From: Candidatus Latescibacterota bacterium
GTDB taxonomy: Bacteria > Latescibacterota > 4484-107
DNA: 10,599 nt
Direction of reading: 5' to 3'
Assembly: GCA_030613045.1 (NCBI GenBank)
Contig: JAUWMS010000038.1
Span: 1 to 10,599 of the forward strand
In this document: positions 1,304 through 7,706 of the stretch, in pieces
Position numbering within the stretch: position 1 is the first letter of the stretch
How the letters are laid out: each line of letters opens with the position of its first letter
Made by a program: the position numbers and the translations under genes
Notes under the pieces: model-generated
Databases searched by the model: none
What the model saw: only the letters and a program-made list of their open reading frames with translations
Told to the model about the DNA's origin: nothing

Positions 1304-1364
1304 GGTATCCGCACTTCGTAGGACAAGATTCAGAGCGAACAGCACCTCTTTGGATTGGACTTAA

Positions 1365-1548
1365 TGCTCCTTGTCAGAAATTCAGATACCCTTCAATTCC
1401 TGTGCAACGCCGAGCTAAAGCTGGCCCTTGGAAAATCATGAACTCTCTGAAGGGACTGCTCTCCAGCCTCTTTAGAGGCTTTTTGTCTTTGCCAGTGCCG
1501 AGTTTACTCCGGCTTTTCAGGACAAGCAAAGTTTTTTGACAAGGAGCA
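1365..1548 (+). promoter_or_regulatory. Inverted repeat that includes the ribosome binding site of the 1556 gene
   Basis: TGCTCCTTGTCA (1365-1376) is the exact reverse complement of TGACAAGGAGCA (1537-1548). The right copy contains the AAGGAG Shine-Dalgarno sequence (1541-1546), 9 bases before the ATG at 1556. If both arms are on one transcript, pairing would hide the ribosome binding site. The terminator at 1465-1490 sits inside the 160-base loop, and CCCTTCA (1389-1395) can pair with TGAAGGG (1448-1454) inside it. The repeat is directly seen; a regulatory role is inferred, and no known riboswitch class was recognised. Confidence 0.4.
1465..1490 (+). terminator. Intrinsic terminator downstream of the first sialidase-like gene
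   Basis: A perfect 6-base stem, AGCCTC (1465-1470) and GAGGCT (1475-1480), closes a TTTA loop and is followed by the T-rich tail TTTTGTCTTT. This is the classic rho-independent layout on the + strand. It lies 160 bases after the first gene's stop and 65 bases before the next gene. It could end the upstream transcript or act as an attenuator in the leader of the hydrolase gene at 1556. Confidence 0.75.
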
Positions 1549-1555
1549 CTCAACC

Positions 1556-2521
1556 ATGACCACAGAGTATATTGTTACAGTAACCGGTGATATTCCAGCC
1601 GACCAATTGGGAATGACGTCTGCCCACGAGCACCTGGTTTGCGACATTTCCGTCAGCTCAGGTAAGAAAGACCACCCCCTCAGCGACGTCTCCCTGATCG
1701 CCCTGGAATTGGGATATTTTCGTGAGGCTGGCGGACAATCCATTATTGAGTTAACGCCATCGGACTTAGGCCGTGATCCCGTCAAGCTGAAAGCCATCAG
1801 CGAAGACAGCGGCGTACAAATAGTAAGTGGCATCGCTTTTTATGACCAGAAAACCTGTTCTGACTGGGTACGCCAGGCCACTGTTGATCAGATCGCCGAC
1901 TACTTCGTGCGCGGGATCGAAGAAGGAACGGGCGGTATTCGAGCGGGATTGATTGGTGAGCTGGCAAGTCACAATGAATCGCAACCCAATGCTTCCAAGT
2001 ATAAGCTACAGGCGTTCGAGACCCTTGTTTTCCAGGCCGCCGCCAGAGCACAACGGCGCACGGGCGTTGCGATCTCAACCCATGCCTGTCTGGGCCGGGC
2101 CGGCCATGCTCAATTAGAGGTCCTCGAGCAAGCCGGCGCCGATATCGAAAAAGTGGTCATTGGTCACTGCGATACGCACTGGCACGAAGATCCGGAAAAA
2201 GACATGGGATACTATCTCCCTATTTTGGAACGTGGGGCAACCTGCGGGTTTGACCTGATCGGGTGGAAAGAATGGATGCCTGGCGAGATTCGGGCCGAGC
2301 GGATAGCGGCTCTGATCGAACTTGGATACGAAAGGCAATTGCTATTGGGAACCGATACCTGCCGTCTTTCTCAGCTTCATGAGAATGGGGGACGGGGATT
2401 CGACTTTCTCTGGACGTCCTTTCTACCTCGCCTTCGTGAACTGGGTGTCGTCCCTTCTCAGATACAGTCTATGTTGGTTGAAGCACCACGAACGTTGTTA
2501 GCAAGGGCAAAGAAACTGTAG
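1556..2521 (+). CDS. Phosphotriesterase-family metal-dependent hydrolase (amidohydrolase superfamily, COG1735 type)
   Basis: The protein is 321 residues long, normal for phosphotriesterase homologues. The ATG is supported by AAGGAG at 1541-1546. The metal ligands of the family can be placed: His24 and His26 in the SAHEHL motif, a bridging Glu135 in GLIGEL where classical phosphotriesterase has a carboxylated lysine, His176 in STHACLG, His204 in VIGHCD, and Asp267 in LLGTDTCR. A bridging Glu is known from the E. coli Php branch. Characterised COG1735 members hydrolyse sugar lactones, lactone phosphates, other lactones or organophosphates; in this glycan-degradation neighbourhood a sugar-lactone or related ester is the most natural guess, but that is inference. 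No signal peptide is seen, so the protein should be cytoplasmic. The stop lies only 7 bases before the attC-like site at 2529, so the gene may itself be, or have been, part of an integron cassette. Confidence 0.88.
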   Translation: MTTEYIVTVTGDIPADQLGMTSAHEHLVCDISVSSGKKDHPLSDVSLIALELGYFREAGGQSIIELTPSDLGRDPVKLKAISEDSGVQIVSGIAFYDQKTCSDWVRQATVDQIADYFVRGIEEGTGGIRAGLIGELASHNESQPNASKYKLQAFETLVFQAAARAQRRTGVAISTHACLGRAGHAQLEVLEQAGADIEKVVIGHCDTHWHEDPEKDMGYYLPILERGATCGFDLIGWKEWMPGEIRAERIAALIELGYERQLLLGTDTCRLSQLHENGGRGFDFLWTSFLPRLRELGVVPSQIQSMLVEAPRTLLARAKKL

Positions 2522-2528
2522 AACAGAC

Positions 2529-2588
2529 ACCGAACAAGTGGCTGCAGAACGACGCCATAAACCGCGCACCTCTGCCGCACCGTTAGCC
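2529..2588 (+). other. attC-like integron recombination site (60 bases), left border of the cassette
   Basis: The right end is GTTAGCC (2582-2588), matching the R' core seen in many attC sites. The left end is ACCGAAC (2529-2535), a slightly degenerate R'' box. Inside, GTG (2538-2540) pairs with CAC (2578-2580) and GCAGA (2544-2548) pairs with TCTGC (2571-2575), with G2541 left unpaired, like the extrahelical base that guides integrase binding. Total length is 60 bases, the classic '59-base element' size. R'' has G where a pyrimidine is usual, so the match is good but imperfect. Confidence 0.6.
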
Positions 2589-2640
2589 GGTGCCCAGAAC
2601 GCTGAATCGCGATATCCACTTAATACGAAAGCAAGAAGAT

Positions 2641-2645
2641 GGAGG
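2641..2645 (+). promoter_or_regulatory. Ribosome binding site that sets the cassette gene start
   Basis: GGAGG lies 12 bases before the ATG at 2658, slightly long spacing. The frame is open further upstream to a GTG at 2538, but that start would put the reading frame through the attC site, so 2658 is preferred. Confidence 0.55.
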
Positions 2646-2657
2646 ATACGGTATTCT

Positions 2658-3245
2658 ATGGATGACTTACTGCTTCGAGCTGAGAAACGCCAAGAACGAG
2701 CACTGAGCGTGATCGAAAGGCTTGGACTCTCAGAGAGATGGTCATGCTATGGGAGTCCAGTTCTTGGAGGTGCAATTAGATACGGGCTGATGGTTGCGTT
2801 AGATATTGATATGGAGATCTATTCTGACGACCCAAAGATTGAGTATGGGTTTGAGCTGATGTCGGAAGTGGCACGTTTACCAGGTGTCTGGAAAGTTCGT
2901 TTTTCGAATAAACTGGAAGGCCCAGATCAAGGTCTGTATTGGCAGATTCGCTATCGTGACGAGGAAGGGGAGGTGTGGAAAGTAGACAATTGGTTAGTGA
3001 GTCACGATCATCCTCACGCTCACTGGGGGGAGAAATTTGCGGATGCGATGCAGAGGGCGCTCACAAATGAGACGAGGCGTGCGATTCTTGAAATCAAAGA
3101 ATCTTTGCTGGGCGAAGCTGGGGTACGAGGGATCGATATATACAGGGCAGTGTTAGAAGGTGGTGTTCGGCGGCTGGATGAGTTCAAAGATTGGCTTGCG
3201 GAGCACGAACCATCTGGCATCATTCTGTGGCTGCCGTCAGCCTAA
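2658..3245 (+). CDS. Cassette-borne protein of unknown function with nucleotidyltransferase-like pattern
   Basis: The product is 195 residues, with no signal peptide and no membrane segment. I do not recognise a named family. The region around residues 32-51 has Gly32-Ser33 followed after a short helix by LDIDMEI, with Asp49 and Asp51, and a later hydrophobic strand carries Asp110 in WKVDNW. A G-S turn, then D-x-D, then a third acidic residue on a strand is the minimal active-site layout of the Pol-beta/MNT nucleotidyltransferase fold, which includes aminoglycoside and lincosamide adenylyltransferases, kinases' relatives and MNT antitoxins. A His-rich stretch HDHPHAHW (116-123) follows, then helices. 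The gene stands alone between two attC-like sites, which fits an accessory trait such as resistance or modification of a small molecule. The enzyme assignment is tentative; the fold could be wrong and no substrate can be named. Confidence 0.8.
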   Translation: MDDLLLRAEKRQERALSVIERLGLSERWSCYGSPVLGGAIRYGLMVALDIDMEIYSDDPKIEYGFELMSEVARLPGVWKVRFSNKLEGPDQGLYWQIRYRDEEGEVWKVDNWLVSHDHPHAHWGEKFADAMQRALTNETRRAILEIKESLLGEAGVRGIDIYRAVLEGGVRRLDEFKDWLAEHEPSGIILWLPSA

Positions 3246-3273
3246 TCTGATTGTGAAAGTCGTGTGGGAGGCC

Positions 3274-3405
3274 GCCCAACAAGCGCATGCGCCCAACCAC
3301 TCTAATTGCGCGCCGAATTCGATGTCGGTTTCGTTATTGTGGCGCGTCTTGCACAGAGAAGCCCGCTGCAAACCCGCGTGGCGGGTAATGCGCGAGCCGT
3401 TAGCC
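3274..3405 (+). other. attC-like integron recombination site (132 bases), right border of the cassette
   Basis: The left end GCCCAAC (3274-3280) fits the R'' consensus RYYYAAC and the right end is GTTAGCC (3399-3405), the same core as the other site. Next to them GCGCAT (3283-3288) pairs exactly with ATGCGC (3388-3393), and CCC (3292-3294) pairs with GGG (3383-3385), with G3289 a likely unpaired base. The R/L spacers are unpaired, as in real attC hairpins. The 94-base interior is long but within the known size range of attC sites (about 57-141 bases). It begins 28 bases after the cassette gene's stop. Confidence 0.65.
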
Positions 3406-3447: not shown

Positions 3448-4587
3448 ATGAATGTAAACATCCTCGATGACGTGGCGGTTTCGCCCAATTTGGACGAAGA
3501 CGCTCAAAATGATGTCTGCGTTTATCCGCTTCCGTGCCGGCTCAATAATGGCGACCTGCTGTGCGTTTATCGCCGTGGTAAAGAAAAACATTCCCTCGAT
3601 GGAATCCTCATCGCTCAACGGTCCACGGATGGCGGAGCCACCTGGTCTGAGCAAATCATTATCCATGATGGTACGCACAAGAAGCTTCCCGAGTCCGTGC
3701 TCACCGGCGCCCTTTGCCAGGTCGCCGATGGAACGATCCTGGCGATGTTCACGGCGGTTGATGCAAAGAAGCCGGATGTCTACATTTTCAGTGAGGAGGG
3801 AAGGAAACTCCGCCAACAGCTTTGCGTTGTCAGAAGTAAAGATGGAGGAAAAACCTGGCCCATCCTTGAGACCCATAAGCTTGTTGGAGCGCCGCGAAAC
3901 GTTTACATTGGGAGCAGGCCGTTTCTTTTGCCCAACGGGGATTTGTTTGTCCCGGTGGAAGCAACCGGGGAGCACGGCCAACAAATTATTCTCGCCACCA
4001 TTTCATCCGATGGAGGCCAGACATTCCAGCCCGTGATCACTTGCGCCGAAGATAAAGAGGGTACATTCAGTTATGGAGATCCCAGATGTACACTGCTTCC
4101 CGACGGGCGCATCGTCATGTTGATCTGGGCCTTCCTGAATGCCACGGAGGAAACGATTCCGGTTCACCGGTGTGTCTCTATGGACCGGGGCCAAAGCTGG
4201 TCTCCGCCCGTCAGTACGCACGTTCAAAGCCAGATTATGACGCCGCTGGCGTTGGATTCCAACCGGTTGATCGCCGCCAGTACCGTGCGGACAGTTCCCG
4301 CGGGGATACGACTTTGGTTTTCCTCCGATGCCGGTGAAACGTGGAACACAGATTCCCCGGTGCAAATGTGGGATGCCCGGGAGGAGAAGATGAAAGGAAT
4401 CTTGCTGACGGTGGAAGACAAGCCTTCAAAAAGTGCGTCCGAAGAAGTCTGGAATGCACTTCCAAGCTTTTCCTTCGGGACTCCCGATCTGGTGCTTTTG
4501 GAAAAGAATACGATACTACTAACCTACTACGCCATCCTTCGTGGAATCACCCATGTTCGCGCCTGTCGGTTCGAAGTAGAACTATAA
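3448..4587 (+). CDS. Sialidase-like protein with five Asp-box repeats
   Basis: The protein has 379 residues. The start ATG is preceded at 9 bases by AAGGAG (3433-3438). Five Asp boxes mark the blades of a complete six-bladed propeller: STDGGATW (59-66), SKDGGKTW (130-137), SSDGGQTF (186-193), SMDRGQSW (244-251) and SSDAGETW (292-299). Arg-containing strands before the first box (CVYRRGKEKHS, 39-49) and at YIGSRPFLLPNG resemble positions where sialidases hold substrate carboxylate, but a canonical RIP motif is not obvious, so it may be a sialidase or a relative acting on another sugar. No signal peptide or lipobox is visible at MNVNILDD, so it is probably cytoplasmic. The gene starts 42 bases after the attC-like site and is not itself followed by one. 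It is clearly diverged from the other two sialidase-like proteins in the window, so a recent duplication is unlikely. Confidence 0.9.
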   Translation: MNVNILDDVAVSPNLDEDAQNDVCVYPLPCRLNNGDLLCVYRRGKEKHSLDGILIAQRSTDGGATWSEQIIIHDGTHKKLPESVLTGALCQVADGTILAMFTAVDAKKPDVYIFSEEGRKLRQQLCVVRSKDGGKTWPILETHKLVGAPRNVYIGSRPFLLPNGDLFVPVEATGEHGQQIILATISSDGGQTFQPVITCAEDKEGTFSYGDPRCTLLPDGRIVMLIWAFLNATEETIPVHRCVSMDRGQSWSPPVSTHVQSQIMTPLALDSNRLIAASTVRTVPAGIRLWFSSDAGETWNTDSPVQMWDAREEKMKGILLTVEDKPSKSASEEVWNALPSFSFGTPDLVLLEKNTILLTYYAILRGITHVRACRFEVEL

Positions 4588-4651
4588 GAATGAAAAGCGA
4601 TTGGGAGGCGCTGGTTCGGTTGCGCGGAATTTTTTAGCGAGTTTTTGATCT

Positions 4652-4753
4652 CGTTCCCACGCTCCTGCGTGGGAATGCCGTCCTGACGCTCTGCGTCAAG
4701 CACGTAGCCACAAGACGCCGAGCGTCTAAACATGCATTCTGACGGAGACCGTC
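4652..4753. repeat. Four-hairpin palindromic intergenic repeat element
   Basis: The gene-free stretch 4588-4889 is dominated by this element. Four hairpins follow in about 100 bases: TTCCCACGC/GCGTGGGAA (4654-4662 with 4667-4675, extendable to 4652-4677), TGACGC/GCGTCA (4684-4689 with 4693-4698, loop TCT), AGACGC/GCGTCT (4713-4718 with 4722-4727, loop CGA) and GACGG/CCGTC (4741-4745 with 4749-4753, loop AGA). Elements that start with a similar 'cgttcccacgct' hairpin are dispersed in many environmental bacterial genomes. The rest of the stretch (4754-4850) shows no gene, promoter or terminator I can support. The element may act as an mRNA stabiliser or terminator after the sialidase gene. Confidence 0.7.
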
Positions 4754-4852
4754 GAAACGTGCCGACGGAATACTTCCCTATTGCTCACTGATCAGGAAAG
4801 GGTGATTATGGCACTCGAAATAGGCGCGTAACGAAGCACCTTGTAACACCTG

Positions 4853-4873
4853 AAACGTAAAACGTAAAACGTG
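4853..4873 (+). repeat. Three-copy tandem repeat AAACGTR before the sulfatase gene
   Basis: Three 7-base units AAACGTA, AAACGTA and AAACGTG run directly into the AAGGAG (4875-4880) Shine-Dalgarno sequence of the sulfatase gene. The copy number could vary by slippage and change the leader length. No regulator is known to me for this motif. Confidence 0.6.
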
Positions 4874-4889
4874 AAAGGAGCGCATCCTT

Positions 4890-6197
4890 ATGAAATGCCC
4901 GAACATCCTGTATATTCATTCCCACGATACCGGCCGGTACGTGCAACCTTACGGATATGCCATCCCCACGCCGAATATCCAGCGGCTCGCCGGACAGGGC
5001 GTCCTGTTCCGACAGGCTTTTTGCGCCGCGCCGACGTGCTCCCCGAGCCGCGCCGCCTTGCTGACCGGTCAGTGCGCCCATAGCAACGGGATGATCGGCC
5101 TGGCTCACCGCGGCTTTTCGTTGCGTGATTATAAGCAGCACATCCTGCACACGCTCCGCACCGTCGGCTATGACTCCACGTTGATCGGGGTGCAACACGT
5201 CGCCAAAGCCCCCGACATCATCGGGTACGATCAGATCGTGAAGGTTCAAAACAACCGTGTCGAACACGTTGCCCCGGCCGCGGTGGATTTTCTGAATCAC
5301 GCGCCGTCCCAACCTTTTTTCCTCTCCGTGGGATTTAGCGAAACCCACCGCGAATTCGCCGCTCCCGGTCCCACCGAAGACCCGCGCTATTGCCGACCTC
5401 CGCATCCCATACCCGATACCCCTCAGACCCGGCAGGATATGGCCGCGTTTAAAGCCAGCGCCCGGGTTTTTGATCAGGGCGTCGGCGCGGTGCTCGATGC
5501 GCTCGACACGAACGGCCTGACCGAGGATACACTGGTGATCTGCACCACCGACCATGGCATTGCCTTCCCGGGGATGAAGTGCAACCTGACCGACCACGGC
5601 ATCGGCGTGATGCTGATCATGCGCGGTCCCGGCTTTGACGAAGGGCTGGTCTGCGATGCAATGGTCTCCCACGTGGATCTGTTTCCTACGATCTGCGAAT
5701 TTCTAAACATCGAGCCTCCCGTCTGGTTGCAGGGCAACTCGATGGTGCCCCTGATCCGGGGTGAGGCGGAACAGATAAACGACGAGATCTTCGCCGAAGT
5801 TACCTACCACGCCGCATACGAGCCTCAGCGCGCCGTGCGCACCCGGCGGTGGAAGTACATCCGCCGGTTTGAGGATCATTGCGGACCGGTTTTGCCCAAC
5901 TGCGACGATAGCTTCAGCAAGGACGTGTGGATGCAGCACGGCTGGCGGGATCGGCCTGTGGCGTCGGAACAGCTCTACGACCTGATTTTCGATCCCAACG
6001 AAGCCCACAATCTGGCGGACGATTCCTCCATGGTGCCGGTGCTCGATGAGATGCGCGGCCGTCTCGACCGGTGGATGCACGCCACCGACGATCCGTTGTT
6101 GCGCGGGCCGGTTCCTGCTCCTCCCGGCGCCAGGGTCAACGATCCGGACGGCCTGTCGCCTCGGGAAGCACCGCGAGTCGGTTCTCCTCGTGCCTGA
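4890..6197 (+). CDS. S1-family sulfatase, heparan N-sulfatase (sulfamidase, SGSH)-like
   Basis: The protein has 435 residues, and its start is supported by AAGGAG at 4875-4880. The formylglycine signature is CSPSR at 50-54 (Cys50 becomes formylglycine), followed by AALLTG. Similarity to human N-sulfoglucosamine sulfohydrolase runs along the chain: the CSPSRA-LLTG and H-NGM-GL block, the FFLSVGFSETHR block (His153), TLVICTTDHGIAFPGMK (Asp221, His222, Lys230) and the AVRTRRWKYIRRF block near 320. The family removes N- or O-linked sulfate from glycosaminoglycan-type sugars. The usual N-terminal Asp-Asp metal pair reads His12-Asp13, and the usual Lys of the GK-H motif is replaced in GVQH (100-103). 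No signal peptide is present, so it would act in the cytoplasm, needing a sulfatase-maturing enzyme (for example anSME) that is not in the window. It sits between two sialidase-like genes, pointing to degradation of sulfated, sialylated or uronate-rich glycans. Confidence 0.92.
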   Translation: MKCPNILYIHSHDTGRYVQPYGYAIPTPNIQRLAGQGVLFRQAFCAAPTCSPSRAALLTGQCAHSNGMIGLAHRGFSLRDYKQHILHTLRTVGYDSTLIGVQHVAKAPDIIGYDQIVKVQNNRVEHVAPAAVDFLNHAPSQPFFLSVGFSETHREFAAPGPTEDPRYCRPPHPIPDTPQTRQDMAAFKASARVFDQGVGAVLDALDTNGLTEDTLVICTTDHGIAFPGMKCNLTDHGIGVMLIMRGPGFDEGLVCDAMVSHVDLFPTICEFLNIEPPVWLQGNSMVPLIRGEAEQINDEIFAEVTYHAAYEPQRAVRTRRWKYIRRFEDHCGPVLPNCDDSFSKDVWMQHGWRDRPVASEQLYDLIFDPNEAHNLADDSSMVPVLDEMRGRLDRWMHATDDPLLRGPVPAPPGARVNDPDGLSPREAPRVGSPRA

Positions 6198-6289
6198 CCA
6201 GGGATTTTACGACCGCTCCGAGGCCATCTAAATGGGTGGGCAAAATTTACTTCATAAAATTTCACCGAAGAGCACGCTATTAGGAATCC

Positions 6290-6356
6290 AGGAAGCCAGG
6301 AGAGACCTGCGATAAATGGCGTAGGAATTGCTTTTTTCCTGGTTTCCTGGCTTCCT
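6290..6356. repeat. Perfect 12-base inverted repeat in the sulfatase-sialidase spacer
   Basis: AGGAAGCCAGGA (6290-6301) and TCCTGGCTTCCT (6345-6356) are exact reverse complements separated by 43 bases. The right arm is preceded by a second partial copy, TTCCTGGT. It lies between the sulfatase stop and the next gene's ribosome binding site and looks like a dispersed palindromic element. No T-tract follows the right arm, so it is not a standard terminator. Confidence 0.6.
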
Positions 6357-6422
6357 TATAAGGCTGAACATCGTTTTTCCCAGAGACTTACCAACACTCA
6401 AAAAAGAGGAGGAACAAGAGCA

Positions 6423-7706
6423 ATGAAATCAATCTGCACCATCGAGCGGGAATTGGTTATCCCTTCACCCGGGCCGTGCATGGCAACTACGGCAAGTATC
6501 CAGTATATAGGGGAGGGATTGCGGCGCGAAGAGATCCGGTCGAACATCTCTTCGAGTGACTGGCATGATACGGTGCGCAGACGCACCTCAGAGGATAACG
6601 GCCGCACGTGGTCCGAGTGGAAGCAGATCTACAAGGAAGCGCCGGAACAGGGCGGATTTACGCAATCGGGAGGGCCTTCACAGGGCGGGAGCGGTCCGGT
6701 TGATCCGGTATCCGGCATGCTGATCAAGACGGTATTCCAGCGGATCATCGAGGGAGATCCCAAGGTGGCGATGCACGTTATCTGGGAAGGCAAGCGGCTC
6801 TTCAGCGATCACGGATTCTACCAGCTTTCGCGGGATAACGGAAAAACCTGGGGACCGGGCCATCTCCTCAAATACGAAGAGGGACCTGATTTCGATCCGG
6901 AGGACTGGGGGAATCCCGCGTATTACCGAAGCAATGAGATGTATATCGGGGACAAGCTTGTGCTCTCGAACGGAAGTGTGGTCATCAGCTCGACCATTCC
7001 CGTCGAGTACCGCGATGAAGAGGACGAGAAGACGCCGGTCGCATTTCCAAATATGTACAGAGAAGGCTGTGTCGCAGGCGCCGTGTGCTTTGTAGGCCGG
7101 TGGGACGCCAACAGGCAGGATTATGAGTGGGAGACCTCGAACCGCATCTTCCTGCCGCGCCATATCTCCAACCGGGGGTTGGTGGAGCTGACGCTGAGCG
7201 AGTTGAAAAACGGGAATCTCCTGCTCCTCATGCGCGGGTCGAATAGAGAGCTGGATCCGATTGCATGTCCCGGAAGGAAATGGATGTCGGTCTCCGAAGA
7301 CGGCGGCATGACGTGGAGTCCCGTCACCGACCTCCGGTACGATACCGGCGAGCCGTTCTATTCGCCTGCGTCTATTTCCAGAACGCTCCGTTCGTCGAAA
7401 ACGGGGAAGCTCTACTACTTTTTGAATATCTCGGATACCCCGCCGGAAGGGAACGAGCCGAGGTATCCGCTGCAGGTCGCGCAAATTGATGAGGGAAAAT
7501 GCGCGCTCATCAAAGATACGGTAACGGTGATTGACGATCGTAATTCCGAAGAGGATTCAGAGCATCTGTCCCTTTCCAATTTCGGTCTGTTGGAGGATCG
7601 CGAGACCCACGTGGTGGAGCTTACGATGACCCGTCTCGGCGCGAAAGGGCCGATGCCGGATTTGTGGGAGGCGGATACGTACAAGTATTTGATTGACTTT
7701 ATTTGA
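6423..7706 (+). CDS. Sialidase-like (exo-alpha-sialidase superfamily) protein with three Asp boxes
   Basis: The protein has 427 residues. The start is supported by AGAGGAGG (6405-6412), 10 bases before the ATG. Asp boxes are SEDNGRTW (56-63), SRDNGKTW (136-143) and SEDGGMTW (291-298). A segment RGLVELTLSELKNGNLLLLM followed by RGSNR (251-275) just before the third box matches the Glu...Arg strands found in BNR sialidase-like families of glycan-degrading bacteria. No signal peptide is seen at MKSICTIERE; a cytoplasmic location is inferred. The spacing of Asp boxes and the sequence differ strongly from the genes at 2 and 3448, so the three are separate subfamilies within one neighbourhood and probably act on different linkages. 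True sialidase activity is not proven; several related families act on other acidic sugars. The 115-base gap to the next gene contains a structured leader. Confidence 0.9.
   Translation: MKSICTIERELVIPSPGPCMATTASIQYIGEGLRREEIRSNISSSDWHDTVRRRTSEDNGRTWSEWKQIYKEAPEQGGFTQSGGPSQGGSGPVDPVSGMLIKTVFQRIIEGDPKVAMHVIWEGKRLFSDHGFYQLSRDNGKTWGPGHLLKYEEGPDFDPEDWGNPAYYRSNEMYIGDKLVLSNGSVVISSTIPVEYRDEEDEKTPVAFPNMYREGCVAGAVCFVGRWDANRQDYEWETSNRIFLPRHISNRGLVELTLSELKNGNLLLLMRGSNRELDPIACPGRKWMSVSEDGGMTWSPVTDLRYDTGEPFYSPASISRTLRSSKTGKLYYFLNISDTPPEGNEPRYPLQVAQIDEGKCALIKDTVTVIDDRNSEEDSEHLSLSNFGLLEDRETHVVELTMTRLGAKGPMPDLWEADTYKYLIDFI

Follow-up and report, generated by a model that had tools for sequence, protein, structure and literature searches.

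Two attC-like sites around a single gene suggest a relic of an integron cassette array in a Latescibacterota genome

The window, by which we mean the whole stretch of DNA analysed, is the entire 10,599-bp contig C412 of a Latescibacterota metagenome-assembled genome (G000; 3.14 Mb in 580 contigs, 78.1% complete, 2.8% contaminated). The genome is incomplete and fragmented, and binning errors are possible for single contigs; the best named match of the phosphomannomutase of the window is a Latescibacterota protein with 87% identity. Nine genes lie on the plus strand. The first three encode a sialidase-like protein, a phosphotriesterase-family protein and a 195-aa ORF, and are followed by a second sialidase-like gene, a sulfatase gene, a third sialidase-like gene, a gene for a VIT1-like protein, an unassigned ORF and the phosphomannomutase gene; the sialidase-like label of the three genes derives from BNR matches. 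Intergenic repeats are found at 4588–4890 and 6198–6423. The AAACGTAAAACGTGAAA repeat units of the intergenic regions are present on several contigs, and a 133-bp element among these repeats is also found in contig C492. A scan of the window with Rfam gave no match at E ≤ 1.

A first-pass annotation of this DNA had proposed that positions 2529–3405 constitute a lone integron gene cassette, with two sites of 60 and 132 bases that both end in GTTAGCC and flank one gene with its own ribosome binding site. The two sites, the single ORF between them and the GGAGGA sequence 5′ of its ATG are all present (Table 1). The limits of the putative cassette were deduced from the two GTTAGCC borders and from the cleavage rule as given in an extract of PMC2727003. 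The 588-bp ORF lies within an 817-bp unit, in agreement with a cassette that carries one or few ORFs and little other DNA. The first-pass annotation had also noted that no integrase is nearby, and tblastn with eight IntI queries found none in the window (best E 0.041, within the sulfatase gene).

Table 1. Coordinates of the features discussed, in the window and on other contigs of the same genome (R2 and R3 are covariance models described in the text)
Feature	Contig	Coordinates	Strand	Details
Dispersed repeat with inverted ends	window	1360–1551		Directly 5′ of the phosphotriesterase gene; ~190 bp
Phosphotriesterase-family gene	window	1556–2521	+	Pfam PTE, 3.7e-55
attC-like site 1	window	2529–2588	+	R″ ACCGAAC; left half AACAAGTGGCTGCAG; R′ GTTAGCC at 2582–2588
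Putative cassette	window	2583–3399	+	From after G|TT of site 1 to the G of GTTAGCC of site 2
Nucleotidyltransferase-fold gene (195 aa; predicted)	window	2658–3245	+	Open throughout, inside a longer frame; GGAGGA 5′ of ATG
attC-like site 2	window	3274–3405	+	R″ GCCCAAC; left half AACAAGCGCATGC; R′ GTTAGCC at 3399–3405
Relic	C304 (L250)	2463–1124	−	IntI fragment, APH-family gene, attC of 33.8 bits (R3, E 1.3e-5)
Relic	C101 (L249)	4410–3182	−	IntI fragment, NucS-like nuclease gene, site of 17.1 bits (R3, E 0.19)
Relic	C459 (L248)	4175–5638	+	IntI fragment, URO-D gene, degenerate site of 13.6 bits (R3, E 1.4)
Lone attC	C403 (L247)	1467–1600		R3 23.8 bits; overlaps a metallophosphoesterase stop
attC candidate	C547 (L253)	5076–5135	−	R3 29.2 bits, R2 22.3 bits; after a 383-aa ORF

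The 195-aa protein matched no Pfam or NCBIfam family, a sequence search of the PDB returned nothing useful and PADLOC gave no match. An AlphaFold2 model of the protein (pLDDT 93.1) was matched by Foldseek to TdT, Cid1, NF45/NF90 and OAS3, with probabilities of 0.99–1.00 and TM scores by query of 0.36–0.60 among the 50 matches listed. In an alignment of 34 sequences D51 and D110 are invariant and D49 is nearly so; position 37, which is V in at least 90% of these sequences, is G in the cargo protein. The model and the alignment together predict a polymerase-beta-type nucleotidyltransferase fold with DxD...D acidic residues. The GC3 of the gene (0.48) is the lowest of the nine, the other eight ranging from 0.556 to 0.745, and its codon usage is the most distant of the nine, with the VIT1-like gene close behind.

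We identified 109 homologues of the protein, with identities of up to 95% and many of them on short contigs. The first-pass annotation had reasoned that conservation of the gene in all relatives, with invariant GTTAGCC borders, would speak against a cassette; a homologue was found in just 4 of 60 genomes, the host genome included. It had also called for a search for the same locus without the cassette, and no such empty allele emerged from the 60 genomes, as the flanking genes match their own genome only (E ≤ 1e-60; one genome of 60 each). Homologue loci in named genomes number 32, and at the seven of these where we read the flanks by eye no attC was seen, from which we conclude that the gene is not always cassette-borne. 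A weak attC-like site (13.0 bits, E 0.72) comes after the end of a paralogue on contig C492. In phylum genome G057 a homologue with 31% identity is the first gene after a tRNA-Val gene and is preceded by GTTAGCC; 3′ of it stands a GGCTAAC...GTTAGCC site whose stem pairs perfectly over 11 bp, and the array continues with further sites and with genes matching APH (below the Pfam cut-off) and DUF402. A similar place exists in G033. Homologues on plasmids (15 records) were all below 36% identity, the DNA implied by the N-terminal extensions of 17 homologous proteins held no trace of a site, and 76 pattern matches to homologues in viral contigs were rejected because none was confirmed.

The consensus of attC sites is RYYYAAC for the R″ box and GTTRRRY for the R′ box. 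The R″ box of site 2 fits this consensus and that of site 1 does not, and the R′ box shared by both sites departs from it at the sixth base, which is not a purine. GTTAGCC also terminates sites in G057, G033 and G041. Each R″ box of an array can further be compared with the start of its own cassette: five of seven positions agree in the window, three of those five being fixed, and in the array of G059 the agreement is 5–7 of 7 positions, with all seven in 7/10 cassettes. The GTTAGCC heptamer occurs exactly twice in the window against 0.59 expected; taken alone it is weak evidence, since 20 of 200 shuffled windows also contained it two or more times.

Inspection of the sites by eye gave a mixed picture. 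At site 1 the L″ and L′ boxes pair at 9/10 positions with one extra G, as the first-pass annotation had described for both sites, though the 3′ spacer is ~2 nt shorter than in control sites. The description fits site 2 only in part: GCGCAT/ATGCGC alone pairs (6 bp), there is no bulge and the spacer is ~2 nt too long. A pairing score was 6.25 for site 1 and 6.55 for site 2; random DNA 5′ of GTTAGCC reached 6 in 2.9% and 6.5 in 1.8% of 3,000 trials. The score was revised after the sites had been seen and is post hoc, the first version of the scanner having had no room for a spacer as short as that at site 1. Control sites of the phylum, fifteen in number, scored 6.95–12.85, values that lean high given that the sites came from that first version, and seven class 1 plasmid control sites, located by gene ends, scored 6.55–12.85.

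Neither site folds into an outstanding bottom-strand hairpin (z −0.32 for site 1 and −1.21 for site 2), and shuffled sequences folded as well in 73 and 22 of 200 cases, respectively. All 14 control attC sites gave z values of −1.90 to −7.12. Two of three candidate sites from the host genome likewise lack a strong fold (C403, +1.11; C260, +0.92; the third, C492, −2.07). We then used three small home-made covariance models: R1, from seven sites of G033 and G057; R2, from eight sites of G059; and R3, from 14 sites of class 1, cyanobacterial-plasmid and phylum origin in 16 rows. A covariance-model match at both sites, which the first-pass annotation had named as its check, was not obtained. With filters off, R1 and R2 detected neither site, and R3 detected site 1 only, at 7.3 bits and E 6. 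R3 recovers five of the eight G059 sites, on which it was not trained (E 3e-5 to 0.19), and none of the seven training sites of R1, so its failure in the window is no proof of absence. The failure of the covariance models fits decay or divergence of the sites as well as it fits absence.

These results bear on the possibility that the gene was acquired in some ordinary way and that two GTTAGCC heptamers happen to have flanks resembling attC. The frequency of heptamer pairs in shuffled windows, the lack of covariance matches at both sites, their unremarkable folds and the seven homologue loci without attC are all compatible with such a chance resemblance. The evidence against it comes from a sequence profile of the left half of attC. 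The profile spans 24 nt and was built from 23 attC sites, each scoring 23 bits or more and belonging to another genome of the phylum, drawn from R3 matches in the phylum and 19 stretches of other genomes. The idea of the profile arose after the likeness of site 1 to canonical left halves had been noticed; the training set is independent, and no parameter derives from the window.

Across both strands of the window, the profile ranks position 3274 first (19.7) and position 2529 second (12.2), with the next position at 5.8; both sites therefore begin with a left half of the type found in attC sites of the same phylum. Among 138,758 positions of the host genome the two starts rank 5th and 8th. This background is enriched in integron contigs, and we therefore took 40 contigs by number, with C305 in place of C304, a known attC carrier, and C361 in place of C360. 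In the 415,318 strand positions of these contigs four scored 12.17 or more and none reached 19.7. The likeness of both left halves to attC thus exceeds background. A corresponding right-half profile gave 12.3 for site 1 (p 6.5e-5) and 4.8 for site 2; 12.29 was reached seven times and 4.78 in 321 places of the same sample, which leaves site 2 with a weak right half.

Pairs were scored only if the left half reached 10 or more and the length was 48–160, and the threshold was set at 24.5, the value of the window itself. Both window sites reach this score, as does one place in the 40 other contigs. That place (L280, G000:C192, 542–662, minus strand) has a pair score of 32.5 and is itself an R3 attC candidate (19.2 bits, E 0.13). 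At the sampled rate of one per 207,659 bases, 0.05 such sites would be expected in the window, where two were seen. When training sites were left out one at a time their scores ran from −12.4 to 29.6, with 19/23 above 14; the profile is insensitive to shifted sites, and 2/23 fell below zero. It is the independent profile, which singles out exactly the two starts, together with the excess over the sampled rate, that leads us to consider chance resemblance unlikely.

We also considered that IntI inserted a single cassette at a secondary, attG-type site, such that site 2 alone would be a true attC and site 1 would be recipient DNA. The first-pass annotation had offered capture at a secondary site as one of its two explanations. 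There is one gene only between the borders, and places with a single attC do exist in the phylum: 12 of the 20 stretches fetched around R3 matches had one match at E ≤ 1. Insertion at attG (Loot et al. 2024, as cited in another paper) would likewise yield single dispersed cassettes; the upstream border of the putative cassette differs in looking like attC. Site 1 carries an attC left half as well as a right half, which makes such a capture the less likely of the two explanations, and the GTTAGCC of the recipient would have to be a coincidence. We regard this explanation as quite improbable.

The remainder of the host genome was searched for integron components. No intact intI was found over the family cut-off. 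Short fragments of the C-terminal (intI 3′) part of IntI are present on three contigs: C304 (32 residues, 78% identity), C101 (56 residues, 52%) and C459 (52 residues, 62%). On all three, fragment, gene and site share one strand and one layout, and on C304 the R″ box of the attC, GTCTAAC, complements a GTTAGAC ahead of the APH-family gene. In reverse integrons the cassette lies 3′ of the intI 3′ end on the same strand, and the layout of the three contigs is like theirs in this respect. In the 40 sampled contigs no intI fragment was found at E ≤ 1e-3. The R3 search of the genome covered 150 of 624 candidates and did not pick up C304, which makes the counts it gave minimum values. On 15 stretches of the genome R1 gave no match at E ≤ 1. 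The pattern AACAAG..GTTAGSC had three matches against 17 for a reversed control, and exact patterns thus show no enrichment in the genome. C398 was rejected as an integron integrase, being XerD. The gene that follows the lone attC of C403 reads by eye as a sulfatase.

Intact and decayed integrons occur elsewhere in the phylum. Of the phylum genomes, 7/64 encode an integrase that exceeds the cut-off of the IntI family, including G002, which belongs to the same class as the host genome, and R3 matches at E ≤ 0.2 under strict filters occur in 15/64, the host genome included. R2 found an integron with IntI and 11 attC sites in G059 (C7, L069). Beside tRNA-Val(GAC) genes we observed cassette arrays in G057 (L072, 6735–9269, minus strand) and G033 (L071, 4024–5541, minus strand). 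Their attC-like sites have long perfect stems, are mostly bulge-free, mostly have a 3′ spacer longer than the 5′ one and are invisible to R3; R1 adds four places in L072. G015, a genome 97% complete with no intI at E ≤ 1e-50, has seven attC sites (R3, 35.6–47.5 bits) on seven contigs (L228–L234). In G061 (C80, L244) an IntI N-terminal piece with an internal stop (6337–6528, minus strand) adjoins a single attC (7148–7219, plus strand), and this is another decayed integron. The pattern CTAACAAG..GTTAGGC occurred in none of the 64 genomes, and GGCTAAC..CGTTAGCC in three, with fewer matches than the control. A scan of viral contigs with GGCTAAC..CCGTTAGCC returned at least 120 stretches and two further scans 2 and 5; none was used as evidence.

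The diversity of sites in the phylum raises the question of whether the window could hold an active cassette, its sites being a lineage variant recognised by an integrase encoded outside the recovered 78% of the genome. Such an integrase could lie in the missing part, and the bulge-free sites of G033 and G057 demonstrate that a variant can escape R3. R1, however, was built on that very variant and finds neither window site, the intI copies seen in the host genome are short fragments and the stems of the window sites are broken. We find an active variant hardly credible.

Our preferred interpretation, to which we assign a probability of about 0.74, is that positions 2529–3405 are the relic of an integron cassette array. 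Both sites are most likely derived from attC and decayed. The first-pass annotation had suggested, as its other explanation, that the gene is what remains of a larger array in a lineage with little-studied integrons, and the attC left halves, the three intI fragments of the host genome and the intI and attC of the phylum support this. Of the traits of an integron cassette, the compact unit and the left-half profile are borne out, R-box consensus, fold and covariance are not, and the window has no intI.

The first-pass annotation had called the cassette lone, and this may be wrong. A second cassette may have preceded it with the phosphotriesterase gene as cargo: only 7 bases separate the stop codon of that gene from site 1, and its GC3 of 0.556 is the second lowest of the nine genes. 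In 1304–1555, where its 5′ cassette border was sought, no GTT exceeds 4/7 complementarity to R″. This stretch includes the dispersed repeat, which has 16-nt arms at 1365–1380 and 1533–1548 (94% complementary) and a second copy of 193 bp with 78% identity in contig C472 (L290), and which may now stand where a first cassette once had its 5′ border.

In the sequence of events that we envisage, an integron integrase would have cut between the G and the TT of an R′ box and integrated there a circular cassette with the nucleotidyltransferase gene. The integrase gene would have been lost after insertion. The attC sites, once unselected, would then have drifted, keeping their left-half sequence and GTTAGCC ends and losing the stems of the R and L boxes, on which recombination of the bottom strand depends. 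The cargo gene is still open and retains the acidic residues predicted for a nucleotidyltransferase, so that it probably continues to be expressed and kept for a function of its own.

The best reading of the relic is an array of one or two cassettes, of a known kind (CALIN) in a new host phylum. Like a CALIN, the window has two sites, most likely attC-derived, around single genes on a contig without intI. A CALIN by default needs two recognised attC sites; the left-half profile finds two, whereas none of the covariance models used recognises both. According to an extract of PMC9024848, IntegronFinder 2.0 by default leaves single attC sites unreported. In Xanthomonas, as described in part of PMC12444791, intI is inactivated in many strains and CALINs stand at other loci, with a two-cassette CALIN without intI in X. 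citri pv. citri. These relic integrons resemble the window in that cassettes outlast intI, and differ from it in that IntegronFinder recognises their sites; those of the window are decayed and belong to another phylum. Sections of PMC3607928 report that Treponema phagedenis retains attC without intI and that T. brennaborense has one attC adjoining intI with GTTAGGT between them; in the host genome here, by contrast, all that is seen of intI is short 3′ fragments, which lie on other contigs. The taxon-specific attC models listed in an excerpt of PMC8352920 are for six orders of Gammaproteobacteria and five other groups, and Latescibacterota is not among them.

Among the matches listed in a full-text literature search for integron with Latescibacter or Latescibacterota, none dealt with integrons in this phylum. 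Integrons are known mainly from Proteobacteria. Because intact integrons, relics invisible to covariance models and intI stubs occur together in Latescibacterota, this phylum allows one to follow how an integron decays until a single fixed gene is left. A half-site profile trained on the lineage found what three covariance models missed, which suggests that covariance searches undercount old cassettes. More speculatively, Latescibacterota may have many small integrons, some of the reverse type, that time and again collapse until a 3′ stub of intI and one cassette are left beside ordinary genes. This is a tentative idea that we hold to be possible though doubtful, and the same caution applies to the proposal that the window, C304, C101, C459, C403 and the seven single sites of G015 represent stages of that collapse. 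If it were true, lone cassettes would be a regular route by which this phylum fixes foreign genes.
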